A stretch of 64,000 nt of DNA from Synechococcus sp. C9 (lineage in GTDB: Bacteria > Cyanobacteriota > Cyanobacteriia > Gloeomargaritales > Gloeomargaritaceae). The stretch is from NCBI RefSeq assembly GCF_022984075.1, contig NZ_JALAAD010000001.1, positions 372,001 through 436,000 on the forward strand. Direction: 5' to 3'. Below are positions 41,296 to 52,059 of the stretch, in pieces. The position numbers were made by a program, and so were the translations under genes. Every line of letters begins with the position of its first letter. Position 1 is the first letter of the stretch. The notes below the pieces were generated by a model, which made no database searches, was not told the origin of the DNA, and worked only from the letters and a program-made list of their open reading frames with translations.

Positions 41296-42098
41296 ACCGG
41301 ATTGGCATCTACGACAGTGGTTTGGGGGGGTTGACCGTCCTGCGAGCCTTGCAAAAACAATTACCCCAGGAGCCGGTGCTGTACTTTGGGGATACAGCCC
41401 GGGTGCCCTACGGGACACGTTCGGCGGCGGAGCTATTGACCTTTGGGCGGGAAATCCTCACCTGGATGGGGGAGCAGGGGGTGAAAATGGTGCTGGTGGC
41501 TTGTAATACCAGTTCTGCCCTGGTGTTGGAGCAACTCCAGCGGGAATTTCCCTGGCCGATTTTGGGGTTGATTCTCCCCGGTGCCCGGACTGCTGTACAA
41601 ACAGGGCGGCGAATTGGCGTATTGGCAACTCCAGCCACGGTGCAAAGTGGTGCCTACCCCCGGGCGATTCGGGAGGCTTGTCCTCAGGCGGGGGTGTGGC
41701 AGGTACCCTGTCCCGCCTTGGTGCCCTTGATCGAACAGGGACGCAGTCATACCCCGGAAACCCGCCTGGTGCTCAACAGTTATTTGGCTCCCCTGCGGAG
41801 TGTGGGGGTGGACACGGTAATTTACGGATGCACCCATTACCCCCTCTTGGATGACCTGATGGCGGAACTACTGCCCCCCCAGGTGCGGCGGATTGACCCG
41901 GCGACAGCCTTGGTACGGGCGGCGGCGCAGGAACTGGATGTATTGGGGTTAAAACATCACGGTAGCGGCGGGGTGCGCTTTGGGGTCAGCGGTTCCCCCC
42001 AAACCTTCGCTCGGGTGGCGCAACGGTGGCTCGGAGCTATTCCCCCAGTGGAAGCCGTCAATTTGCCCATGGTGCAGGCACTACCCTTGGGGGAATGA
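41292..42098 (+). CDS. murI: Glutamate racemase
   Basis: 268 aa enzyme that supplies D-glutamate for peptidoglycan. It starts IGIYDSGLGGLTVL with the catalytic-site Asp, and has the two catalytic cysteines in VACNTSSA and YGCTHYPLL. The ATG overlaps the amidase stop as ATGA, so the two cell-wall genes are translationally coupled. The 3' end overlaps a convergent crcB gene by 18 bases. Confidence 0.95.
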   Translation: MNRIGIYDSGLGGLTVLRALQKQLPQEPVLYFGDTARVPYGTRSAAELLTFGREILTWMGEQGVKMVLVACNTSSALVLEQLQREFPWPILGLILPGARTAVQTGRRIGVLATPATVQSGAYPRAIREACPQAGVWQVPCPALVPLIEQGRSHTPETRLVLNSYLAPLRSVGVDTVIYGCTHYPLLDDLMAELLPPQVRRIDPATALVRAAAQELDVLGLKHHGSGGVRFGVSGSPQTFARVAQRWLGAIPPVEAVNLPMVQALPLGE

Positions 42099-42473
42099 AG
42101 ACCAATTCGCCAAAAAAATTCCCAATTCCAGCCCCACCCAACCAGCAACGGGACTACCAAGGAAATAAACCAGGGCGGGGGCATAACGTCTTTGTCCCCA
42201 GAGTTTAGACATATCCAACGCATAGGTAGAAAACGTCGTATAGGAAGCGATAAACCCCATCGTGACTAACCCATTTAACCAAGAGATATTTTCATCAATC
42301 AGCGTGCTACAAAAGCCCATGAATACGGAACCGGATACATTCACAAACAGGGTGCCAAAGGGGAAATCCGTTCCCATCGTTTCCGCAAACCAAATAATCA
42401 GATAATGGCGGCAGAGGGCACCGGGAATGGCACCCAAGGCGATCCACAGGGGTAACAACCAAGGGTGATCCAT
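42081..42473 (-). CDS. crcB: Fluoride channel subunit CrcB/FluC (second of two)
   Basis: 130 aa with four membrane spans. Family motifs are GAIPGALCRHYLI near the N-terminus, PFGTLFVNVSGSVFMG, and GFIASYTTFSTYALD, which forms the phenylalanine-lined fluoride path. CrcB proteins act as dual-topology homodimers or as heterodimers encoded by adjacent genes. It starts four bases after the first crcB gene ends. Confidence 0.92.
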   Translation of the reverse strand: MDHPWLLPLWIALGAIPGALCRHYLIIWFAETMGTDFPFGTLFVNVSGSVFMGFCSTLIDENISWLNGLVTMGFIASYTTFSTYALDMSKLWGQRRYAPALVYFLGSPVAGWVGLELGIFLANWSSFPQG

Positions 42474-42477
42474 CGCC

Positions 42478-42912
42478 TCACGGTTCCTGCTGATCCACGG
42501 GGAAGCGTATCAACCGCCCCGCCAACCGACTGCCCAATTCTAAGCACAGCCACCCCAGGATACCACTGCCCATCCAATAGAAAAAAAACAACCCCCACCC
42601 GTGTGCCGTCCAGAGGTGTTTACTATCCAATTCATAGCTGGAAAAGGTGGTGTAGGCACCCATAAATCCTGTCAACAGGAATAGCCGTAACTCTGGATGC
42701 ACCGGCAACTGGGGGGTAAAACAGAGCGTCGCCACCAAGCCCATTGCCCCACAACCAGTTACATTCACCACGAAGGTGCCCAGGGGCAGAGTTGTGGTAA
42801 AAATATGGCTCACCCCCATCTCCACATAGTAGCGGCTCACGGCTCCCAGCACCGCCCCCAAGGCAATCCCCAAAACCGGTCTCAGAGTGGTCAGAACCAT
42901 AGACATTTCCAT
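42478..42912 (-). CDS. crcB: Fluoride channel subunit CrcB/FluC (first of two)
   Basis: 144 aa with four spans and the same motifs as its neighbour: GAVLGAVSRYYVE, PLGTFVVNVTGCGAMG and GFMGAYTTFSSYELD. It is clearly a paralogue rather than a recent duplicate, since the sequences differ strongly outside the motifs. In-frame ATGs at 42912, 42906 and 42900 make the start uncertain. I looked for a fluoride riboswitch upstream and did not find a convincing one. Confidence 0.92.
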   Translation of the reverse strand: MEMSMVLTTLRPVLGIALGAVLGAVSRYYVEMGVSHIFTTTLPLGTFVVNVTGCGAMGLVATLCFTPQLPVHPELRLFLLTGFMGAYTTFSSYELDSKHLWTAHGWGLFFFYWMGSGILGWLCLELGSRLAGRLIRFPVDQQEP

Positions 42913-43313: not shown

Positions 43314-44090
43314 ATGAAAACAGCCGCTAAAATTACACCACTGGCTCTATTTTTGAGTTTATTTTTTATCTCTGGATGTAATTTATTCAGTGAACCTGAA
43401 GCCAACACTCCACCCGTCAGTGGCTCCCCTGGTGTAACACCCAGCCCTGGTCAGGAGGGGGATAACCCCATTACCCTGGGCACCCAAGGGACGGAACGGA
43501 GCGGCACTGACCCCCTCGAGTTATTTCAAAATCCGCAAATTAAGAAAGAACTCAACATTACCGATGAGCAGTCCGCCAAAATCAAAGCGATTGGGGAGCA
43601 ATTTCGGCAACGGGCGCGGGCTTTGGTTTCCGGCTTAAACCTGGGGCAAATGGAACCAGCGGAGCGGGAGAAAAAATTAGATCAAATCAAAGATGAATTG
43701 GAAAAAGAAGTGGGCATCGCCCGGGATGAAGTGGGGAAAGTCCTCACCCCAGCACAACTCAAACGTTTCAAAGAAATCACCCTACAAATTTATGGATTTG
43801 GCATCCTCTCCTATGAACATTTTATTCAAGAGTTAAAACTCACCCCAGAACAACAGGCGAAACTCAAAAAATTGCGGGATGATACCTGGACGAGTATGCG
43901 GATCAATTTGAAAGTGCCCGAAAAGGGAGCGGACAACAAGCAAATCATTGCCACCAACCGCAAACGGATGGATCAAATTCTCCAGGAAAGCAACGCTAAA
44001 GCCCTAGATATATTAACCCCAGAGCAAAAGAAATTAGTGGAAACCCTCCAGGGAGCAAAGTTTCAATTTACACCCCCCCAACCCGGTTGA
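43314..44090 (+). CDS. Lipoprotein with Spy/CpxP-like LTPEQ repeats
   Basis: 258 aa. Lipoprotein signal with the lipobox FISGC (Cys22), then a Pro/Gly-rich linker. The helical domain carries repeated L/I-T-x-E-Q or L-T-x-A-Q units: NITDEQSAKIKAI, VLTPAQLKRFKEI, KLTPEQQAKLKKL and ILTPEQKKLVETL. This spacing resembles Spy/CpxP periplasmic chaperones, though the match is by pattern only. It precedes the HydE-like gene by 51 bases on the same strand and may belong to that transcript. Confidence 0.65.
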   Translation: MKTAAKITPLALFLSLFFISGCNLFSEPEANTPPVSGSPGVTPSPGQEGDNPITLGTQGTERSGTDPLELFQNPQIKKELNITDEQSAKIKAIGEQFRQRARALVSGLNLGQMEPAEREKKLDQIKDELEKEVGIARDEVGKVLTPAQLKRFKEITLQIYGFGILSYEHFIQELKLTPEQQAKLKKLRDDTWTSMRINLKVPEKGADNKQIIATNRKRMDQILQESNAKALDILTPEQKKLVETLQGAKFQFTPPQPG

Positions 44091-44141: not shown

Positions 44142-45131
44142 ATGTACGCCTTAGTTGCTGAACCTACCGAGAGAATTTTAGGTTACTCTTTGGGGGAATT
44201 AATTGATGCTGAAGGGGAATTACAGCAGGAACTCTTTGCCCAGGCTCGGTGGGTGCGGCAACAGTATCAAATGGATCAGGTGCATTTGCGGGGTGTGATT
44301 GAAATTTCTAATTTCTGCCAAAAAAACTGTAATTACTGCGCCATGCGGGCGACCAATCAAAAGTTAGACCGCTATCGTTTATCGGCAGTGGAAATTTTAG
44401 ATATTGCCGCAGAGATTCATCGCTTGGGCATTGGCACTTTATTTTTGCAGGCGGGGCAAGACCCGGAATGCGATGCCATTTTACAGGAGGTGATCCCCAC
44501 CGCCAAACGGCAATTTGGTTTGCATATTTTGCTCTGTTTGGGAGAATATCCCCGGGCGACCTATGAACGGTGGCGGGGGTTGGGAGCAGATGCTTACATT
44601 CTCAAATTTGAAACCTCAGAACCGGCGGGCTATCGTCAAATTGCCCACACCCCTTTGACCCGGCGTTTGCAGTGCATTCGCTGGCTTCAGGAATTGGGTT
44701 TTCAAGTGGGAACCGGCAATATCGTCGGGCTACCCGGACAAACCCTTGATACCCTGGTGCAAGATGTATTATTGACCCAAGAAATTCAGCCGGATTTTGC
44801 CAGTTCTTCCCCGTTCATTGCCAATGAAAACACCCCTTTTTCAGCGCAAAAAGCCGGGAGTCTCAAGCGGACATTAAACATCATGGCAATTTTTCGGATG
44901 CTTTTACCCCAGGCGTTAATTCCCACGGTGAGTGCCCTAGAAAAGTTAGAACCCGGTGGACAACTGGCGGGGTTAAATGCAGGGGCAAATGTGATTACGA
45001 TTAACTTTACACCGCCCCAATGTCGCCAAAAATATGTGATTTACTCCCAGCGGCGTTTTGTGGTGAGTTTAGACCATGCTAAAACGATTATTCACCAGGC
45101 AGGTATGACCGTGCGACCAGTGGCAATTTAG
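44142..45131 (+). CDS. HydE/BioB-like radical SAM enzyme
   Basis: 329 aa. The [4Fe-4S] motif is CQKNCNYCAM (CxxxCxxC) near residue 60, preceded by LRGVIEISNF as in HydE. Other HydE-like regions are LFLQAGQDPE, LCLGEYPRATYERW, YILKFETSEP, GNIVGLPGQTLDTLVQD and the C-terminal GANVITINFTPPQCRQKY. HydE matures [FeFe]-hydrogenase with HydF and HydG; none of those is present here and cyanobacteria usually lack that enzyme, so another substrate, perhaps a sulfur-containing amino acid, is likely. AGGAG precedes the ATG. It is 15 bases before the methyltransferase gene. Confidence 0.8.
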   Translation: MYALVAEPTERILGYSLGELIDAEGELQQELFAQARWVRQQYQMDQVHLRGVIEISNFCQKNCNYCAMRATNQKLDRYRLSAVEILDIAAEIHRLGIGTLFLQAGQDPECDAILQEVIPTAKRQFGLHILLCLGEYPRATYERWRGLGADAYILKFETSEPAGYRQIAHTPLTRRLQCIRWLQELGFQVGTGNIVGLPGQTLDTLVQDVLLTQEIQPDFASSSPFIANENTPFSAQKAGSLKRTLNIMAIFRMLLPQALIPTVSALEKLEPGGQLAGLNAGANVITINFTPPQCRQKYVIYSQRRFVVSLDHAKTIIHQAGMTVRPVAI

Positions 45132-45146
45132 GGAGTAAGACGAGGG

Positions 45147-46223
45147 ATGAAATTATCTCGTTCAATCCGTTGGTTAATTGTTAGTTTAATGACCGGCATG
45201 ATCGTCTGGATTGCTTATACTTTTGCCGTGCCCCAGTTATTAACACCTCGGGTAGCGATTACGTCACCCATGTCCCTAATTCATGTGGGGAGTAATGATT
45301 CCTTTGCGATTACCCCGGACGGCATCAAAGCGGGGCGTTATATCTTGGAAATGTTAGTCAGCGGCAGTCAGGAGGCGGCACAAAAAGCCATTGAAATTTA
45401 TGACGAAATCATTCCCCGGGAAAATTATGGGGGGGAATACAGTGCATTACGTTGGTTCGCTGACTTATTTTTGATGCCTGACCAAGAAAAGCAAAAAGCC
45501 TTACAAGACCCCTTTGTGGCTAGTTTTTATGATTTTTTTGCAGAAAATAATTTTGCCAATCTCAAAGAATACGTTCAACGGAAATATCTCCTACAACAAT
45601 ATCCAGACCAACTCACGGAAACAGGTCGCAATCGAGCCGCCTTTTTAGAGGATTTTATCCTGTTTAACAACCCGACCCGTGAGGCATGGGAACAAACTAG
45701 CAAGGTTCTTTCTGTAATACCCATTTCCCCTGGTCAAACCATTGCGGATATTGGCAGTGGACCGGGATACTACAGCACCCGTTTCAGCCAAAAAGTGGGG
45801 GCAAAGGGGCGAGTTTATAGTATTGATACGGTGCAAGCGCATTTGGATTATATCAATCGCTATATTCAACGGCAGAATATTACCAATATCACGACGATTA
45901 ATAGTTATCCTGGCACCACGATTGGATTACAGGGAAAACAGGTGGATGTGGCTTTCATGTGCTCTTTGTATCACAATATCTATGGCATGAGTACGGCACC
46001 CGACCGGGACAGTTTTGTGCAAAGTATTAAAGCGGCGTTGAAACCTGGGGGTACTTTGGTATTGGTGGACAATGGACTGGTAGAGCCGGGGCAATTACCG
46101 TATCACGGTCCCTATGTGGCGAAAGAATTGGTTATCCATCAACTGCGTTTTTATGGCTTTAAGCTCAAACGGGAATATGCCTTTATCCCCCAACGCTATG
46201 TGTTAATTTTTGAAGCAGTTTAA
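45147..46223 (+). CDS. Membrane-anchored class I SAM methyltransferase
   Basis: 358 aa. One N-terminal hydrophobic segment (IRWLIVSLMTGMIVWIAYTF) is followed by a domain of about 150 residues that I do not recognise (GIKAGRYILEMLVSG ... NFANLKEYVQRKY). The methyltransferase domain starts near residue 190, with motif I ADIGSGPGYYSTRF, SIDTVQ and AALKPGGTLVLVDNG. The anchor places the enzyme at a membrane, with SAM only on the cytoplasmic side, so an inside-facing anchor is the sensible reading. A lipid, quinone-like or tetrapyrrole substrate is possible. It sits between two radical SAM genes. Confidence 0.75.
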   Translation: MKLSRSIRWLIVSLMTGMIVWIAYTFAVPQLLTPRVAITSPMSLIHVGSNDSFAITPDGIKAGRYILEMLVSGSQEAAQKAIEIYDEIIPRENYGGEYSALRWFADLFLMPDQEKQKALQDPFVASFYDFFAENNFANLKEYVQRKYLLQQYPDQLTETGRNRAAFLEDFILFNNPTREAWEQTSKVLSVIPISPGQTIADIGSGPGYYSTRFSQKVGAKGRVYSIDTVQAHLDYINRYIQRQNITNITTINSYPGTTIGLQGKQVDVAFMCSLYHNIYGMSTAPDRDSFVQSIKAALKPGGTLVLVDNGLVEPGQLPYHGPYVAKELVIHQLRFYGFKLKREYAFIPQRYVLIFEAV

Positions 46224-46328
46224 CCCCGCAAATCTGAAATTTTTCTGCGAAATCCCCTTGTAATTTACTCATTCATGGTATATCTAAAATCAACCTTTCT
46301 TTCCTATTGGTAATCAGGGGGTAATACG

Positions 46329-47780
46329 ATGGTGGTTGTGCAGTCATCCACATACATGGAACACATTTCTGAACGACTGGCGCAGTACGAGGAGTTACAA
46401 TCCTTAGGTTTAATTGTGCGCTCAGGGGATTTTTTCCCGTCGGTACATTATCCCCCAATTACCATGTATCCGCCGCTCACCCCGGAGGAATTATTAGCGA
46501 CTTATACGCCCCCAGCGGATGGCAAATTTGATATTTATGCCCATGTGCCTTTTTGTCGGCAACGGTGTTTGTTTTGCCATTATCCGGTGCAATTAGGCGA
46601 GCGGAGTGCGGAGAAAGACCAGTATTTATCCGCTTTTGCCCAGGAGATGGATATTTACATGGAACGATTAGGTTATACTCGCCTCAAAGCCCGTTCAATT
46701 TTGGTGGGGGGCGGCACACCGACCTATCTGGCACTAGACCAATTAGAGCGATTTTTACAGATATTAGACCGCCGCCTTGATCGTCGGGAATGTACCCAAT
46801 ACAATTACGACGTTGACCCAGTGACCTTAATTGGCAAAGAGGGAAATGAACGCTTGAAAATGATGCGGGATTATGGGGTTGACCGCCTGACCATTGGGGT
46901 GCAATCCTTGAATCCAGCCACTCTGAAATTAATGAACCGGCATCATGGGACAGAGCAGGCATTAGAGTCCATTAGTGATGCTCTGAAATTTGGCTTTCAG
47001 GTGAATATTGAGTTTATTTTTGGTTATCTCGGTCAAACCTTAGAAAATTGGATAGCAGTGATTGAACAGGCAGTGGGTTTGGGAGTGCATGAAATCCAAT
47101 TATATCGTTTGAAATTTGAAGCCTATGGCGATTTTCAAGGGCCAGTAAAACACCAACGGGAACGGCATCCCGAAGTGGTACCTACAGTGCAGGAAACCCT
47201 GGCGATGAAGCAGGCGGCAATTAATATTCTCAACGTCCACGGTTATCGGGAAAATTTGCGGCGGGTGTTTTCTAAACAGCCAGAATATTACTCCCACTAT
47301 GCGGACAACCAATGCTGTGGTTTGTTGGATCAATTGGGGTTTGGTCTAACGGCATTTAGTAGTTTACGGGATCGGTTTGGCCTCAATACCCAAAGTTTTG
47401 ATGAATATTACCGGATGATTGGTGAACGTCGTTTGCCCTTGAACCGGGGATTGATTCGCAGTTGGGAGCAACAAATTCGCTGGGCAATTGTCTTACCTTT
47501 GAAGAACCGGCGGGTGTGGAAAAATTATTTTCATAAAGTCACCAATTACTCATTAAATGAGGTATTTCGCCCCAAAATTAACGCTCTGAAAAAACACGGT
47601 TTACTGACTGAGGATGAAGAAAAAATTGAATTAACGCCCTTGGGAGCTTTTTTTGCTGATGAAGTAGCACAACAATTTCATTATCCAGACCATATTCCTT
47701 TCCCACGTTCAGACTATGCCAATGGAGATTTGAATCCCTATTATTACCAGGAAATCTTTGGGGGAAATCATGGCGGATAA
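46329..47780 (+). CDS. HemN/HemW-like radical SAM enzyme
   Basis: 483 aa. The cluster motif reads HVPFCRQRCLFCHYP (CxxxCxxC), as in HemN-type enzymes; VGGGTPTYL, the Gly-rich SAM-binding strand, and RLTIGVQSLNP follow. The C-terminus has the HemN-type winged-helix part (IRWAIVLPLKN ... LKKHGLLTEDEEKIELTPLG). True HemN makes protoporphyrinogen IX without oxygen; many relatives do other jobs (HemW, heme degradation, methyl transfer). Start at ATG 46329 behind AGGGGGT. Its last 11 bases overlap the FHA-ABC gene, so the two are coupled. The specific reaction is unknown. Confidence 0.78.
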   Translation: MVVVQSSTYMEHISERLAQYEELQSLGLIVRSGDFFPSVHYPPITMYPPLTPEELLATYTPPADGKFDIYAHVPFCRQRCLFCHYPVQLGERSAEKDQYLSAFAQEMDIYMERLGYTRLKARSILVGGGTPTYLALDQLERFLQILDRRLDRRECTQYNYDVDPVTLIGKEGNERLKMMRDYGVDRLTIGVQSLNPATLKLMNRHHGTEQALESISDALKFGFQVNIEFIFGYLGQTLENWIAVIEQAVGLGVHEIQLYRLKFEAYGDFQGPVKHQRERHPEVVPTVQETLAMKQAAINILNVHGYRENLRRVFSKQPEYYSHYADNQCCGLLDQLGFGLTAFSSLRDRFGLNTQSFDEYYRMIGERRLPLNRGLIRSWEQQIRWAIVLPLKNRRVWKNYFHKVTNYSLNEVFRPKINALKKHGLLTEDEEKIELTPLGAFFADEVAQQFHYPDHIPFPRSDYANGDLNPYYYQEIFGGNHGG

Positions 47781-50190
47781 AACAATAATTGCTTCCGATA
47801 CAATTGTCAATTTGCACCCGGAAATTGAGGTCAACAATCAGGGACAAATTATCCGTTTTCAATTGACGGAACCACACCATGTTTTGGGGCGTGCCCCCCG
47901 TAAATCTCCGCCCGAAGGTTTAATTATTCCCGATCAATGGGTGCATATTAGTCGGGTGCAGGCGACGTTTCGGCGGACGGGTGAGCATTACACGATTCAT
48001 GATGGGGATGGGCAAACCTCGAGTATGAATCGGTTATTTATTAACCATGCCATTATTACACCGGCACAGGGACATCTTTTGCATCCTGGGGATGAAATCA
48101 CCATTGGTACCGACCCGAAAACAGCGATTACGATTACCTATCACCACCCCTCTACCCAAGTTAAACCCATTACACCTAAGAAACGTTCCCTATCTTTGAA
48201 AGGGCGTTCATCAGTGATTTTAGGGCGGGGACAGGAAGCGGATTTACAACTGGATGCCCCCACCGTTTCTCGCTCCCATGCAGTCATTTTTCAGGATAAT
48301 AATGGGCACTATACGATCCGAGATTGTAGTGTAAATGGGGTCTTTGTCAACGGTAAAAAAGTAGTGACTATTGCTCCGTTAAATGTTGGGGATGTGATTA
48401 CCATTGGTCCCTACCGTTTGGTATTGCAAGGGGATATGTTGGTGTTGTCCGACCAGGGGGATCGGATTCGCTTGGATGCCAAGGATTTAGCTAAAGTTGT
48501 TACTGGGAAAAAAGGTCAAAAAATTCGTATCCTGAATGATATTTCTCTGGTGATTGAACCGGGGCAATTTGTGGCATTGGTAGGGGGAAGTGGGGCGGGG
48601 AAATCAACGTTAATGAAAAGTTTATTGGGGATTGAGGCGGTCAGCCAAGGTTCGGTATATCTAAATGGGGATGATTTACGCAAGTATTTTAATATCTATC
48701 GAAGCATTATTGGCTATGTACCACAAAGTGATATTGTTCACACCAATCTAACAGTAAAAGAGGTACTGTATTATGCGGCAAAACTGCGGTTGCCTAAGGA
48801 TGCGAATATCAACGAGATTATTGAACAGGTGATGCGCCAAGTGGAATTAACGGAGCGGCAGGATACCTTGGTGCGGAGTTTAAGCGGGGGTCAATTGAAA
48901 CGGGTGAGTATTGGGGTGGAATTGTTATCTGATCCCAAATTATTCTTCCTCGATGAACCTACCTCGGGACTCGACCCGGGTTTGGATAAAAAAATTATGC
49001 AATTGTTACGGAAATTAGCGGATCAAGGGCGCACAATTATTCTGGTAACTCATGCGACGACCAATGTTACCCTCTGCGACCGTTTGGTGTTTATGGGTTT
49101 GGGGGGAAATTTATGTTACTTTGGCCCACCCCAGTCAGCGGCATCATTTTTTGACCTGGAACATCAGGATTTTGCCGATATTTATATCAAGTTAGAAACC
49201 CGAGAGGCAGTAGCGCAGGAAGCAGAGCGATTTCGCCAGTCGGAAACGTACCAAAAATTTATCCAGGAACGCTTGATTGGACAGGTGAATGAACAGCCTT
49301 TTCAGCCGGAAAAAGTGCGGGCTTCGTTTTGGCGGCAGTTGTGGGTGTTGGTGGGGCGGTATGGTCAACTCCTGAAACGGGACCCGGTTTATTTGTTTTT
49401 GTCTTTGGCAACTGCACCCTTGGGAATTGTGTTAATTCGCTTGGCAGTGCAAACCCAAAATCCCTTTGTGGGGGCACCGGATTATGTGTTGGCTTCCTTG
49501 GCACGGCGGGTCATTTTTGTAATTGTCTGTGCCGCTTTGTGGGCAGGTTTTGCTAGTTCATTGCAGGAAATTGTCAAGGAATCAGCGATTTATCTGCGGG
49601 AACGGTTGGTGAATTTGGGACTGTTTGCCTATTTGAGTTCTAAGGTGGTGACCCTGGGGGGCTTGGCAATTTTACAGAGTGTCCTGATTACCGCTGTGAT
49701 CCTCCTTGGGTTTAGTTGGCCGCCGGGATTGTGTGGTGCCGATGCCCTATGTTTTCCCAACTATTTCCCTTGGCCTTTAGGGGTATTCATTACCATTTTT
49801 CTGACGATTTTAACCTCGGTTTCTCTGGGCTTAATGGTATCCGCAATGGTGCGAAATTCAGCGCAGGCGAATAGTGCCTTACCCCTACTTTTGCTCCCCC
49901 AAATTATCTTTGCGGGAATTTTATTTGACCTGGGCAATCAGGGGCGACTGGTTTCTTGGTTGATGCTGAGTCGGTGGGCCGTGGGGGCGTTGGGGGCGTT
50001 GGCGGATGTCAATTCTTTGGTGCCAGGAGTACCGGCGGGTACGGACCCGGACAGCATTCCCATCAAGGAGATGGCGATGTTCACGGCTACTTTGCCGAAT
50101 TTGGGGTTGAATTGGGCAATCTTGCTCCTGCATACGGTAGTGTATTTGGGCGTGACCCTGTGGGTGCAAAAACGCAAGGATATTTACTAA
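47770..50190 (+). CDS. FHA-domain ABC transporter (ABCG-type half transporter)
   Basis: 806 aa. Two FHA phosphothreonine-binding domains: about residues 35-115 (VLGRAPRKS ... RVQATFRRTGEHYTIHDGD) and 140-220 (ILGRGQEADLQLDAPTVSRSHAVIF ... SVNGVFVNGK). An ABC ATPase follows at about 245-455 (Walker A GGSGAGKST, signature LSGGQLKR, Walker B FFLDEPTSGLD). Six membrane spans of the ABC2 type occupy about 530-800. This order of ATPase before membrane domain is that of ABCG exporters. FHA domains imply control by Ser/Thr kinases. The ATG at 47770 lies inside the upstream radical SAM gene, with GGGGGAAATC before it. Cargo unknown. Confidence 0.88.
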   Translation: MADKTIIASDTIVNLHPEIEVNNQGQIIRFQLTEPHHVLGRAPRKSPPEGLIIPDQWVHISRVQATFRRTGEHYTIHDGDGQTSSMNRLFINHAIITPAQGHLLHPGDEITIGTDPKTAITITYHHPSTQVKPITPKKRSLSLKGRSSVILGRGQEADLQLDAPTVSRSHAVIFQDNNGHYTIRDCSVNGVFVNGKKVVTIAPLNVGDVITIGPYRLVLQGDMLVLSDQGDRIRLDAKDLAKVVTGKKGQKIRILNDISLVIEPGQFVALVGGSGAGKSTLMKSLLGIEAVSQGSVYLNGDDLRKYFNIYRSIIGYVPQSDIVHTNLTVKEVLYYAAKLRLPKDANINEIIEQVMRQVELTERQDTLVRSLSGGQLKRVSIGVELLSDPKLFFLDEPTSGLDPGLDKKIMQLLRKLADQGRTIILVTHATTNVTLCDRLVFMGLGGNLCYFGPPQSAASFFDLEHQDFADIYIKLETREAVAQEAERFRQSETYQKFIQERLIGQVNEQPFQPEKVRASFWRQLWVLVGRYGQLLKRDPVYLFLSLATAPLGIVLIRLAVQTQNPFVGAPDYVLASLARRVIFVIVCAALWAGFASSLQEIVKESAIYLRERLVNLGLFAYLSSKVVTLGGLAILQSVLITAVILLGFSWPPGLCGADALCFPNYFPWPLGVFITIFLTILTSVSLGLMVSAMVRNSAQANSALPLLLLPQIIFAGILFDLGNQGRLVSWLMLSRWAVGALGALADVNSLVPGVPAGTDPDSIPIKEMAMFTATLPNLGLNWAILLLHTVVYLGVTLWVQKRKDIY

Positions 50191-50247: not shown

Positions 50248-52059
50248 ATGACTGATACCCCTGTGAGCCGTCTGCGGAATTTTTGCATCATTGCCCACAT
50301 TGACCACGGCAAGTCCACCTTGGCGGACCGGTTGCTCCAGGTGACAGGGACAGTGGAACAGCGGCAGATGCGGGAACAATTCCTGGACAATATGGATTTG
50401 GAGCGGGAACGGGGCATTACGATTAAACTCCAAGCCGCCCGCATGAACTATCAGGCAAAAGATGGACAAAAGTACGTTTTGAACCTAATTGATACCCCCG
50501 GTCATGTGGATTTTTCCTATGAGGTTTCCCGGTCACTGGCGGCGTGTGAAGGGGCGTTATTGGTCGTAGATGCGTCCCAAGGGGTGGAAGCGCAAACCCT
50601 GGCGAATGTGTACATGGCGTTAGAACATGATTTAGAAATTATTCCGGTGATTAATAAAATTGATTTACCAGGGGCCAATCCCGAACGGGTGAAACAGGAA
50701 ATTGAAGATGTGATTGGTTTGGATTGCTCCCAGGCGATTTTGGCTTCGGCAAAAGAAGGGATTGGCATTGAAGATATTTTAGAAGCGGTGGTGCAACGGA
50801 TTCCCCCGCCCCAAGACCGCCGGGATCAGCCGTTACGGGCGTTAATTTTTGATAGCTATTACGACTCCTATCGGGGGGTGGTGGTGTATTTGCGGGTGAT
50901 GGATGGGGGGTTCAAAACGGGCGACCGGGTGCGCTTGATGATGTCCGGGAAGGAATACGAAGTGGATGAATTGGGGGTGATGTCGCCCAAACAGGTGCCG
51001 GTGGCGGATTTACAAGCCGGGGAAGTGGGCTATTTGACGGCGGCGATTAAAACGGTAGAGGATGCCCGGGTGGGGGATACCATTACCTTGGCTTATAACC
51101 CGGCGACCGAGCCATTACCTGGCTACAAAGAGGCGAAACCGATGGTGTTTTGCGGTTTATTTCCGATTAATGCGGATGACTATGCCGATCTGCGGGATGC
51201 CCTGGGCAAGTTGAAATTGAATGATGCCGCTTTGCACTATGAACCGGAAACTTCTTCGGCGATGGGGATGGGATTTCGGTGCGGCTTTTTGGGGCTTTTG
51301 CACATGGAAATTGTCCAGGAACGCCTGGAGCGGGAATACAATTTGGAGTTAGTAGTTACGGCTCCCTCGGTGGTCTATCGGGTGACATTAAATGATAATT
51401 CGGTGGTGGAAATTGACAACCCTGGGGATTTACCCAATCCCAACGAACGGCAACAAATTGAAGAACCCTACGTGAAGGTGGAAATCATCACGCCGGAGAC
51501 CTATGTGGGGACGTTGATGGAGTTAGCCCAATCCCGGCGGGGCGAATTTAAGGATATGCGTTATCTCACTCCGGAACGTACGGTGTTGGTGTATGAAATT
51601 CCCTTGTCGGAGGTGGTGACGGACTTTTTTGATCAGATGAAATCCCGCTCCCGGGGCTACGCCAGTATGGAGTACCAATGGGTGGGGTATCGGGCGAATG
51701 ATTTGGTGAAATTGGATATTTTGATTAACGATGAACCAGCGGATGCCCTAGCCACGATTGTGCATCGGGACAAAGCCTACAATGTGGGGCGGGCGTTGGT
51801 GCAAAAGTTAAAGGAATTGATTCCTCGCCATCAGTTCAAAGTGCCCATTCAAGCCGCCATTGGCAGTCGAGTGATTGCCAGCGAATCCATTGCCCCCCTA
51901 CGCAAAAATGTGTTGGCGAAATGTTACGGGGGGGATGTGAGCCGCAAACGCAAATTGCTAGAGAAGCAAAAAGAGGGGAAAAAACGCATGAAAGCCTTGG
52001 GTAATGTGGACGTGCCCCAGGAGGCATTTATGGCGGTTTTGAAATTGAAAAGCGAATAA
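50248..52059 (+). CDS. lepA: Elongation factor 4 (LepA)
   Basis: 603 aa ribosomal GTPase, conserved in bacteria and plastids, that helps translation or ribosome maturation under stress. G1 is [15 protein letters not shown], then [28 protein letters not shown] and NKIDLPGA; the C-terminal LepA-specific domain has [20 protein letters not shown]. The length is normal. No clear Shine-Dalgarno sequence before the ATG. It follows the FHA-ABC gene by 57 bases. Confidence 0.97.

Follow-up and report, generated by a model that had tools for sequence, protein, structure and literature searches.

Genes of the locus

The window, the whole 64,000-nucleotide stretch of Synechococcus sp. C9 DNA that was analysed, contains a run of genes on one strand that encode a lipoprotein, two radical SAM enzymes, a methyltransferase and an ABC exporter (Table 1). 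The first-pass annotation had reported four co-directional genes at 44142-50190, and the open reading frames agree exactly with the values it gave, including the 15 bases between P0001 and P0002, the 105 bases between P0002 and P0003 and the 11-base overlap of P0003 with P0004. Its domain assignments also agree with Pfam, which places Radical_SAM in both P0001 and P0003, HemN_C additionally in P0003, Methyltransf_31/25/11 in P0002 and, in P0004, FHA in two stretches together with ABC_tran and ABC2_membrane, the architecture of an FHA-ABC exporter. The LTXXQ lipoprotein gene, absent from that earlier list, is a fifth member of the unit, as the gene immediately 5' of the HydE-like gene in cyanobacterial carriers is its orthologue and a homologue lies beside the methyltransferase gene on a Bradyrhizobium plasmid. 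The next gene after P0004 is lepA, which starts at 50248. When the locus was scanned for promoters and terminators, nothing rose above shuffled sequences. At 42081-42912 (-) of the window are two adjacent small membrane-protein genes that, by eye, have the look of a paired CrcB/Fluc fluoride channel.

Table 1. Features of the cassette locus, in window coordinates.
Feature	Position	Strand	Basis or remark
LTXXQ/CpxP-like lipoprotein (P0005)	43314..44090	+	PF07813; lipobox-like LFFISGC; first gene of the conserved unit
HydE-like radical SAM enzyme (P0001)	44142..45131	+	PF04055, TIGR03956; CX3CX2C intact
Class-I SAM methyltransferase with N-terminal signal anchor (P0002)	45147..46223	+	Pfam, N-terminal analysis, AlphaFold2, Foldseek
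105-base gap	46224..46328	.	EamA permease gene here in Nostocaceae and other carriers
HemN-like radical SAM enzyme (P0003)	46329..47780	+	Distinct subfamily, invariant HYADNQCC
FHA-FHA-ABC-ABC2 exporter (P0004)	47770..50190	+	Pfam domains

The five genes have a GC content of 44-48%, compared with a mean of 55.8% (sd 5.9) for sampled genes of the same genome, which puts them at the 6th to 11th percentile. The cassette DNA is thus A/T-richer, as had been noted by eye, but the contrast is milder than the roughly 40 versus 55% first estimated, and other parts of the window (9-11 kb and 57-61 kb) are of comparably low GC. With genes that lie no lower than this percentile range and a cassette that four Gloeomargaritales share, we do not regard the low GC as proving a recent transfer.

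Distribution of the cassette and its transporters

Relatives of P0003 with 47-94% identity are found in named genomes, in sampled genomes of the phylum, in Omnitrophota and on plasmids. Counting the window, the HemN-like gene is present in 21 genomes or records, which comprise four Gloeomargaritales, seven other cyanobacteria in a patchy distribution, two bacteria with small genomes from a different class of the phylum, six Omnitrophota, a single myxobacterium and a Bradyrhizobium plasmid of the conjugative type; three more plasmid records, near copies of the latter, are kept outside this number. The HydE-like gene shares the locus of the HemN-like gene in 17 of the 21 (in one of them about 10 kb away) and lies elsewhere in the genome in two more. 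Gene order and orientation vary, being divergent in Cyanothece and Crocosphaera and mixed in Omnitrophota. The LTXXQ protein accompanies the set in every one of the eleven cyanobacterial carriers as well as in Bradyrhizobium, whose plasmid has all of the parts: an LTXXQ-like protein, the methyltransferase (51%), a DMT permease, an ABC/FtsX/HlyD exporter, the HydE-like enzyme and the HemN-like enzyme (58.7%). The neighbourhood is therefore kept across Cyanobacteria, Omnitrophota, Myxococcota and a Bradyrhizobium plasmid, in accordance with the conserved cassette that had been suspected from the single locus, and the scattered orthologues that were named as the case against it are not what the neighbourhood search found. 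The set is interrupted in two genomes. In a congener (G239; one contig of 3,049,282 bases, compared with 2.96 Mb in four contigs for the present genome) it is broken between the methyltransferase and HemN-like genes, with the HemN-like and FHA-ABC genes some 135 kb away, and in a Chlorogloea genome it is split into two loci.

The usual core of the cassette includes an EamA/DMT permease that Gloeomargarita lost or never had. Its gene is present in 17 of the 21 carriers and is missing only in the four Gloeomargaritales, and a copy hidden elsewhere in the Gloeomargarita genome was considered and rejected, the sole candidate being a generic paralogue of 29-32% identity. The FHA-ABC gene adjoins the set in Gloeomargarita and in two Nostocaceae, but orthologues of it were found in 22 of the 146 genomes sampled from the phylum, almost always without the cassette, and it is retained here as a local partner and not as a universal core member. 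Genes for an HlyD/FtsX/ABC exporter lie at the cassette in three other carriers (Cyanothece, Crocosphaera and Bradyrhizobium). The association with transporters that had been put forward for the locus is thus borne out. The further suggestion that export is gated by Ser/Thr phosphorylation is reduced to a local possibility, because the FHA-ABC protein is not specific to the cassette and is replaced in other carriers. In architecture P0004 can be likened to the Rv1747-type FHA-ABC exporters of mycobacteria, with which it shares two FHA domains, an ATPase and an ABC2 membrane domain, although its first FHA domain has, by eye, Q at the position where His is usual.

Two radical SAM subfamilies

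P0001 resembles HydE (TIGR03956; T. maritima structures 3iix and 5few) in its radical SAM fold, its CX3CX2C motif and its equivalents of E161 and R180 (T. maritima numbering throughout), and it aligns clearly with T. maritima HydE over the full barrel (E 5e-68). Against the NCBIfam HydE model it scores 256.5 bits, with a cut-off of 254.6, and the copy in the Bradyrhizobium cassette scores 165.7 only. When 14 cassette copies were compared with 24 canonical HydE proteins from relatives, the Cys motif was intact in all 14, with E161 and R180 kept, and the substitutions R159K, G226S, R279Q and M291T were each present in 14 of 14. There are further changes from canonical HydE at T134 (to L or I), S136 (to C), T269 (to S) and G228. 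Seven of these positions (T134, S136, R159, G226, G228, T269 and M291), which from the structural literature on HydE we take to line its pocket, carry the canonical residue in 24 of 24 canonical proteins and, position by position, in none or at most one of the 14 cassette copies. In the tree, canonical HydE forms one group, and the cyanobacterial cassette copies and those of Omnitrophota and the small-genome lineages fall outside it, the join having weak support; Bradyrhizobium has a long branch that the tree does not place. By its sequence, the cassette HydE-like enzyme is a subfamily separate from canonical HydE. Since TIGR03956 admits this non-hydrogenase subfamily, in the case of P0001 by 1.9 bits, annotation may assign HydE to genomes that lack a hydrogenase. 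Two HydE-like proteins of 40-43% identity to P0001 (L053:1595-2521 (-) and L054:9257-10174 (+)) have lost the whole CX3CX2C stretch and are for this reason probably no longer radical SAM enzymes; a gene for an FkbM-type methyltransferase adjoins the HydE-like gene in both loci.

HydE chemistry is summarized as the adenosylation of a synthon in excerpts from PMC11736057, and HydE is described as co-occurring with HydF and HydG in excerpts from PMC3226654. In the present genome, profile searches gave no Fe_hyd_lg_C match for an [FeFe]-hydrogenase, with a positive Thermotoga control, and no HydG above the cut-off, again with a positive control, the sole match being P0001 itself. Among the carriers, HydG exceeds the cut-off only in G190, G242 and G393, each of which has one or more HydE-like genes in addition to that of the cassette, so that a hydrogenase role and a cassette role coexist there.

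P0003 shares the HemN fold, the HemN_C domain and the CX3CX2C motif with the HemN, HutW, HemW and STM4012 families, and the best Foldseek match, the closest solved structure, is E. coli HemN (1olt). However, it falls under every NCBIfam equivalog cut-off, with 150.1 against 324.95 for the HemN coproporphyrinogen dehydrogenase, 131.9 against 400 for the ChuW/HutW class C radical SAM methyltransferase and 161.5 of 380 for another HemN-type equivalog, and the HutW and HemW models match it weakly. It differs from these families also in motifs of its own, GDFFPSVHYPPIT near the N-terminus and an invariant HYADNQCC, and long branches set its clade apart from the other HemN-like proteins of cyanobacteria. 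Judged by motifs and tree, the HemN-like cassette enzyme is a tight and isolated subfamily.

Methyltransferases with predicted export and the proposed function

P0002 has the features of a class-I methyltransferase, namely a Rossmann-like fold, the glycine motif DIGSGPG and an acidic residue after strand 2, and is predicted to bind SAM. In its AlphaFold2 model (mean pLDDT 82) the methyltransferase domain is confident and is accompanied by a further, helical domain, and the top Foldseek match is the SAM methyltransferase 3dh0. A hydropathy and charge scan of 15 aligned cassette methyltransferases revealed a hydrophobic N-terminal segment, preceded in nearly all by positive charge, that the radical SAM proteins of the cassette do not have, and there are relatives with signal peptides that appear cleavable. 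For METHYLTRANSFERASE a location outside the cytoplasm is predicted, with the catalytic domain of P0002 on the outer side of the membrane. The N-terminal anchor recognized at first pass therefore stands, but the notion of an enzyme that is merely anchored gives way to that of an enzyme with a catalytic domain predicted to face outwards.

Of the 21 carriers, 19 have a class-I methyltransferase that bears an export signal, from several unrelated families; in other phyla the signal-bearing neighbours are three tandem PrmA-like proteins (L083), a PCMT (L084) and UbiE-like proteins (L042-L044, L085, L087). The same motif pattern found no exported methyltransferase among 404 background genes, in a strict scan that counts few methyltransferases of any kind. 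The full-length P0002 type occurs in 4 of 386 genomes of the phylum, all four with both radical SAM orthologues. A related family of about 250 residues (L110-L121) is widespread in cyanobacteria; all 12 members sampled look exported, 10 of which come from genomes that lack a full-length P0002 orthologue, and an exported methyltransferase is therefore not unique to the cassette; that it is a signature requiring the core is contradicted by this family. These proteins and a Bordetella protein (3ocj, 'possible exported protein') also have a SAM-methyltransferase fold behind an export signal, but the cassette type is distinguished by its extra helical domain (about residues 50-180) and, in this sample, is found only in cassette carriers. 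In the two small-genome carriers the place of the methyltransferase is taken by signal-anchored proteins of about 325 residues next to the EamA and HemN-like genes (L046:6329-9343, three in tandem, and L047:7259-8335). These gave no Pfam match at E up to 1 and no family by profile comparison, and an FkbM-like identity suspected by eye was withdrawn. At L042:3097-5031 (-) the cassette methyltransferase has a long N-terminal extension that resembles, by eye, a degenerate metallophosphoesterase, of which Pfam reports none, and at L084:2598-6967 an Omnitrophota operon upstream of the core encodes two NHL-repeat-like proteins, one large protein and one PCMT, all with signal-like starts.

We put forward as somewhat the more probable account a biosynthesis-and-export cassette in which the final methylation takes place outside the cytoplasm. 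Two cytoplasmic radical SAM enzymes, the HydE paralogue that does not serve a hydrogenase and the enzyme of the HemN-like subfamily, would make a small compound, which a permease, EamA in most carriers, would move over the inner membrane. An ABC exporter, in Gloeomargarita the product of the FHA-ABC gene, may help or replace EamA, and the signal-anchored SAM-type methyltransferase would carry out the last, methylating step outside the cytoplasm. Here we infer the order of the steps, the transport of the product and the identity of both methyl donor and product. That the HydE-like and HemN-like enzymes, the permease and an exported methyltransferase travel together across phyla argues for this proposal, as part of which the cassette would have spread horizontally. 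Against it stand the exported methyltransferases of about 250 residues in genomes without the cassette, the two carriers with anchored 325-residue proteins instead, the missing EamA of all four Gloeomargaritales and the route by which SAM or another methyl donor would get outside, for which it offers no explanation.

Other accounts of the gene set are less probable to different degrees. That these are chance neighbours with no joint function could draw on the split loci of G239 and Chlorogloea, but it is scarcely credible when in 17 of 21 carriers, across phyla and in varied orders and orientations, the HydE-like gene remains at the locus of the HemN-like gene. Nearly as improbable is a leftover or alternative set for [FeFe]-hydrogenase maturation, for which P0001 clears the HydE equivalog cut-off by its small margin; the genome has neither hydrogenase nor HydG, the pocket differences are fixed, the tree branches are separate and the HydG-bearing carriers have other HydE-like genes beside the cassette copy. 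We reject it for the Synechococcus sp. C9 genome. The first-pass annotation had named hydF/hydG and an [FeFe]-hydrogenase elsewhere in the genome as the case against its view; neither hydG nor such a hydrogenase is present. The similarity of P0003 to HemN, its closest solved structure, and the weak HutW and HemW matches suggest modification of a tetrapyrrole such as a heme or chlorophyll derivative. This we consider doubtful, as P0003 lies far under the cut-off of all HemN-type equivalogs, the cassette occurs in Omnitrophota and small-genome lineages and none of its annotated neighbours is a tetrapyrrole gene.

An unlikely alternative, yet one with more in its favour, is that the HydE-like and HemN-like enzymes produce or alter a methyl donor of the adenosyl-sulfur type, either SAM or an analogue, that EamA exports and that secreted methyltransferases with different acceptors use. 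Next to the core lie methyltransferases from different families (P0002 type, UbiE-like, three tandem PrmA-like and PCMT), as expected if the donor is the shared item, and their variation between lineages would be explained if the exported compound were the methyl donor. There are SAM transporters among the EamA/DMT proteins of Rickettsia and Chlamydia, and the HydE crystal structure 5few holds S-adenosyl-L-cysteine, labelled 'final product'. However, exported methyltransferases also occur where the core is absent, which argues against a strict need for such a supply; Gloeomargarita has no EamA gene, and the chemistry is a proposal only. Donor supply is less likely than biosynthesis, export and methylation of a compound, but it would be categorically new.

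No description of the gene set was found in the searchable open-licence literature, and the excerpts from PMC11736057 and PMC3226654 do not mention it. As far as this literature shows, the cassette is undescribed and is a new variant among radical-SAM biosynthesis-and-export clusters. Two radical SAM subfamilies, labelled 'HydE' and 'coproporphyrinogen oxidase' by automatic annotation although neither label fits, are thereby defined and tied into a mobile cassette that crosses phyla. This also raises the question of which methyl donor and which methyl acceptor serve methyltransferases that are sent outside the cytoplasm, and the cassette, its plasmid-borne version included, is a small testable unit. 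If the donor proposal were true, there would be a periplasmic supply of a SAM-like compound, and SAM-dependent reactions outside the cytoplasm, fed by a donor pathway of their own, would amount to a system of a new kind.
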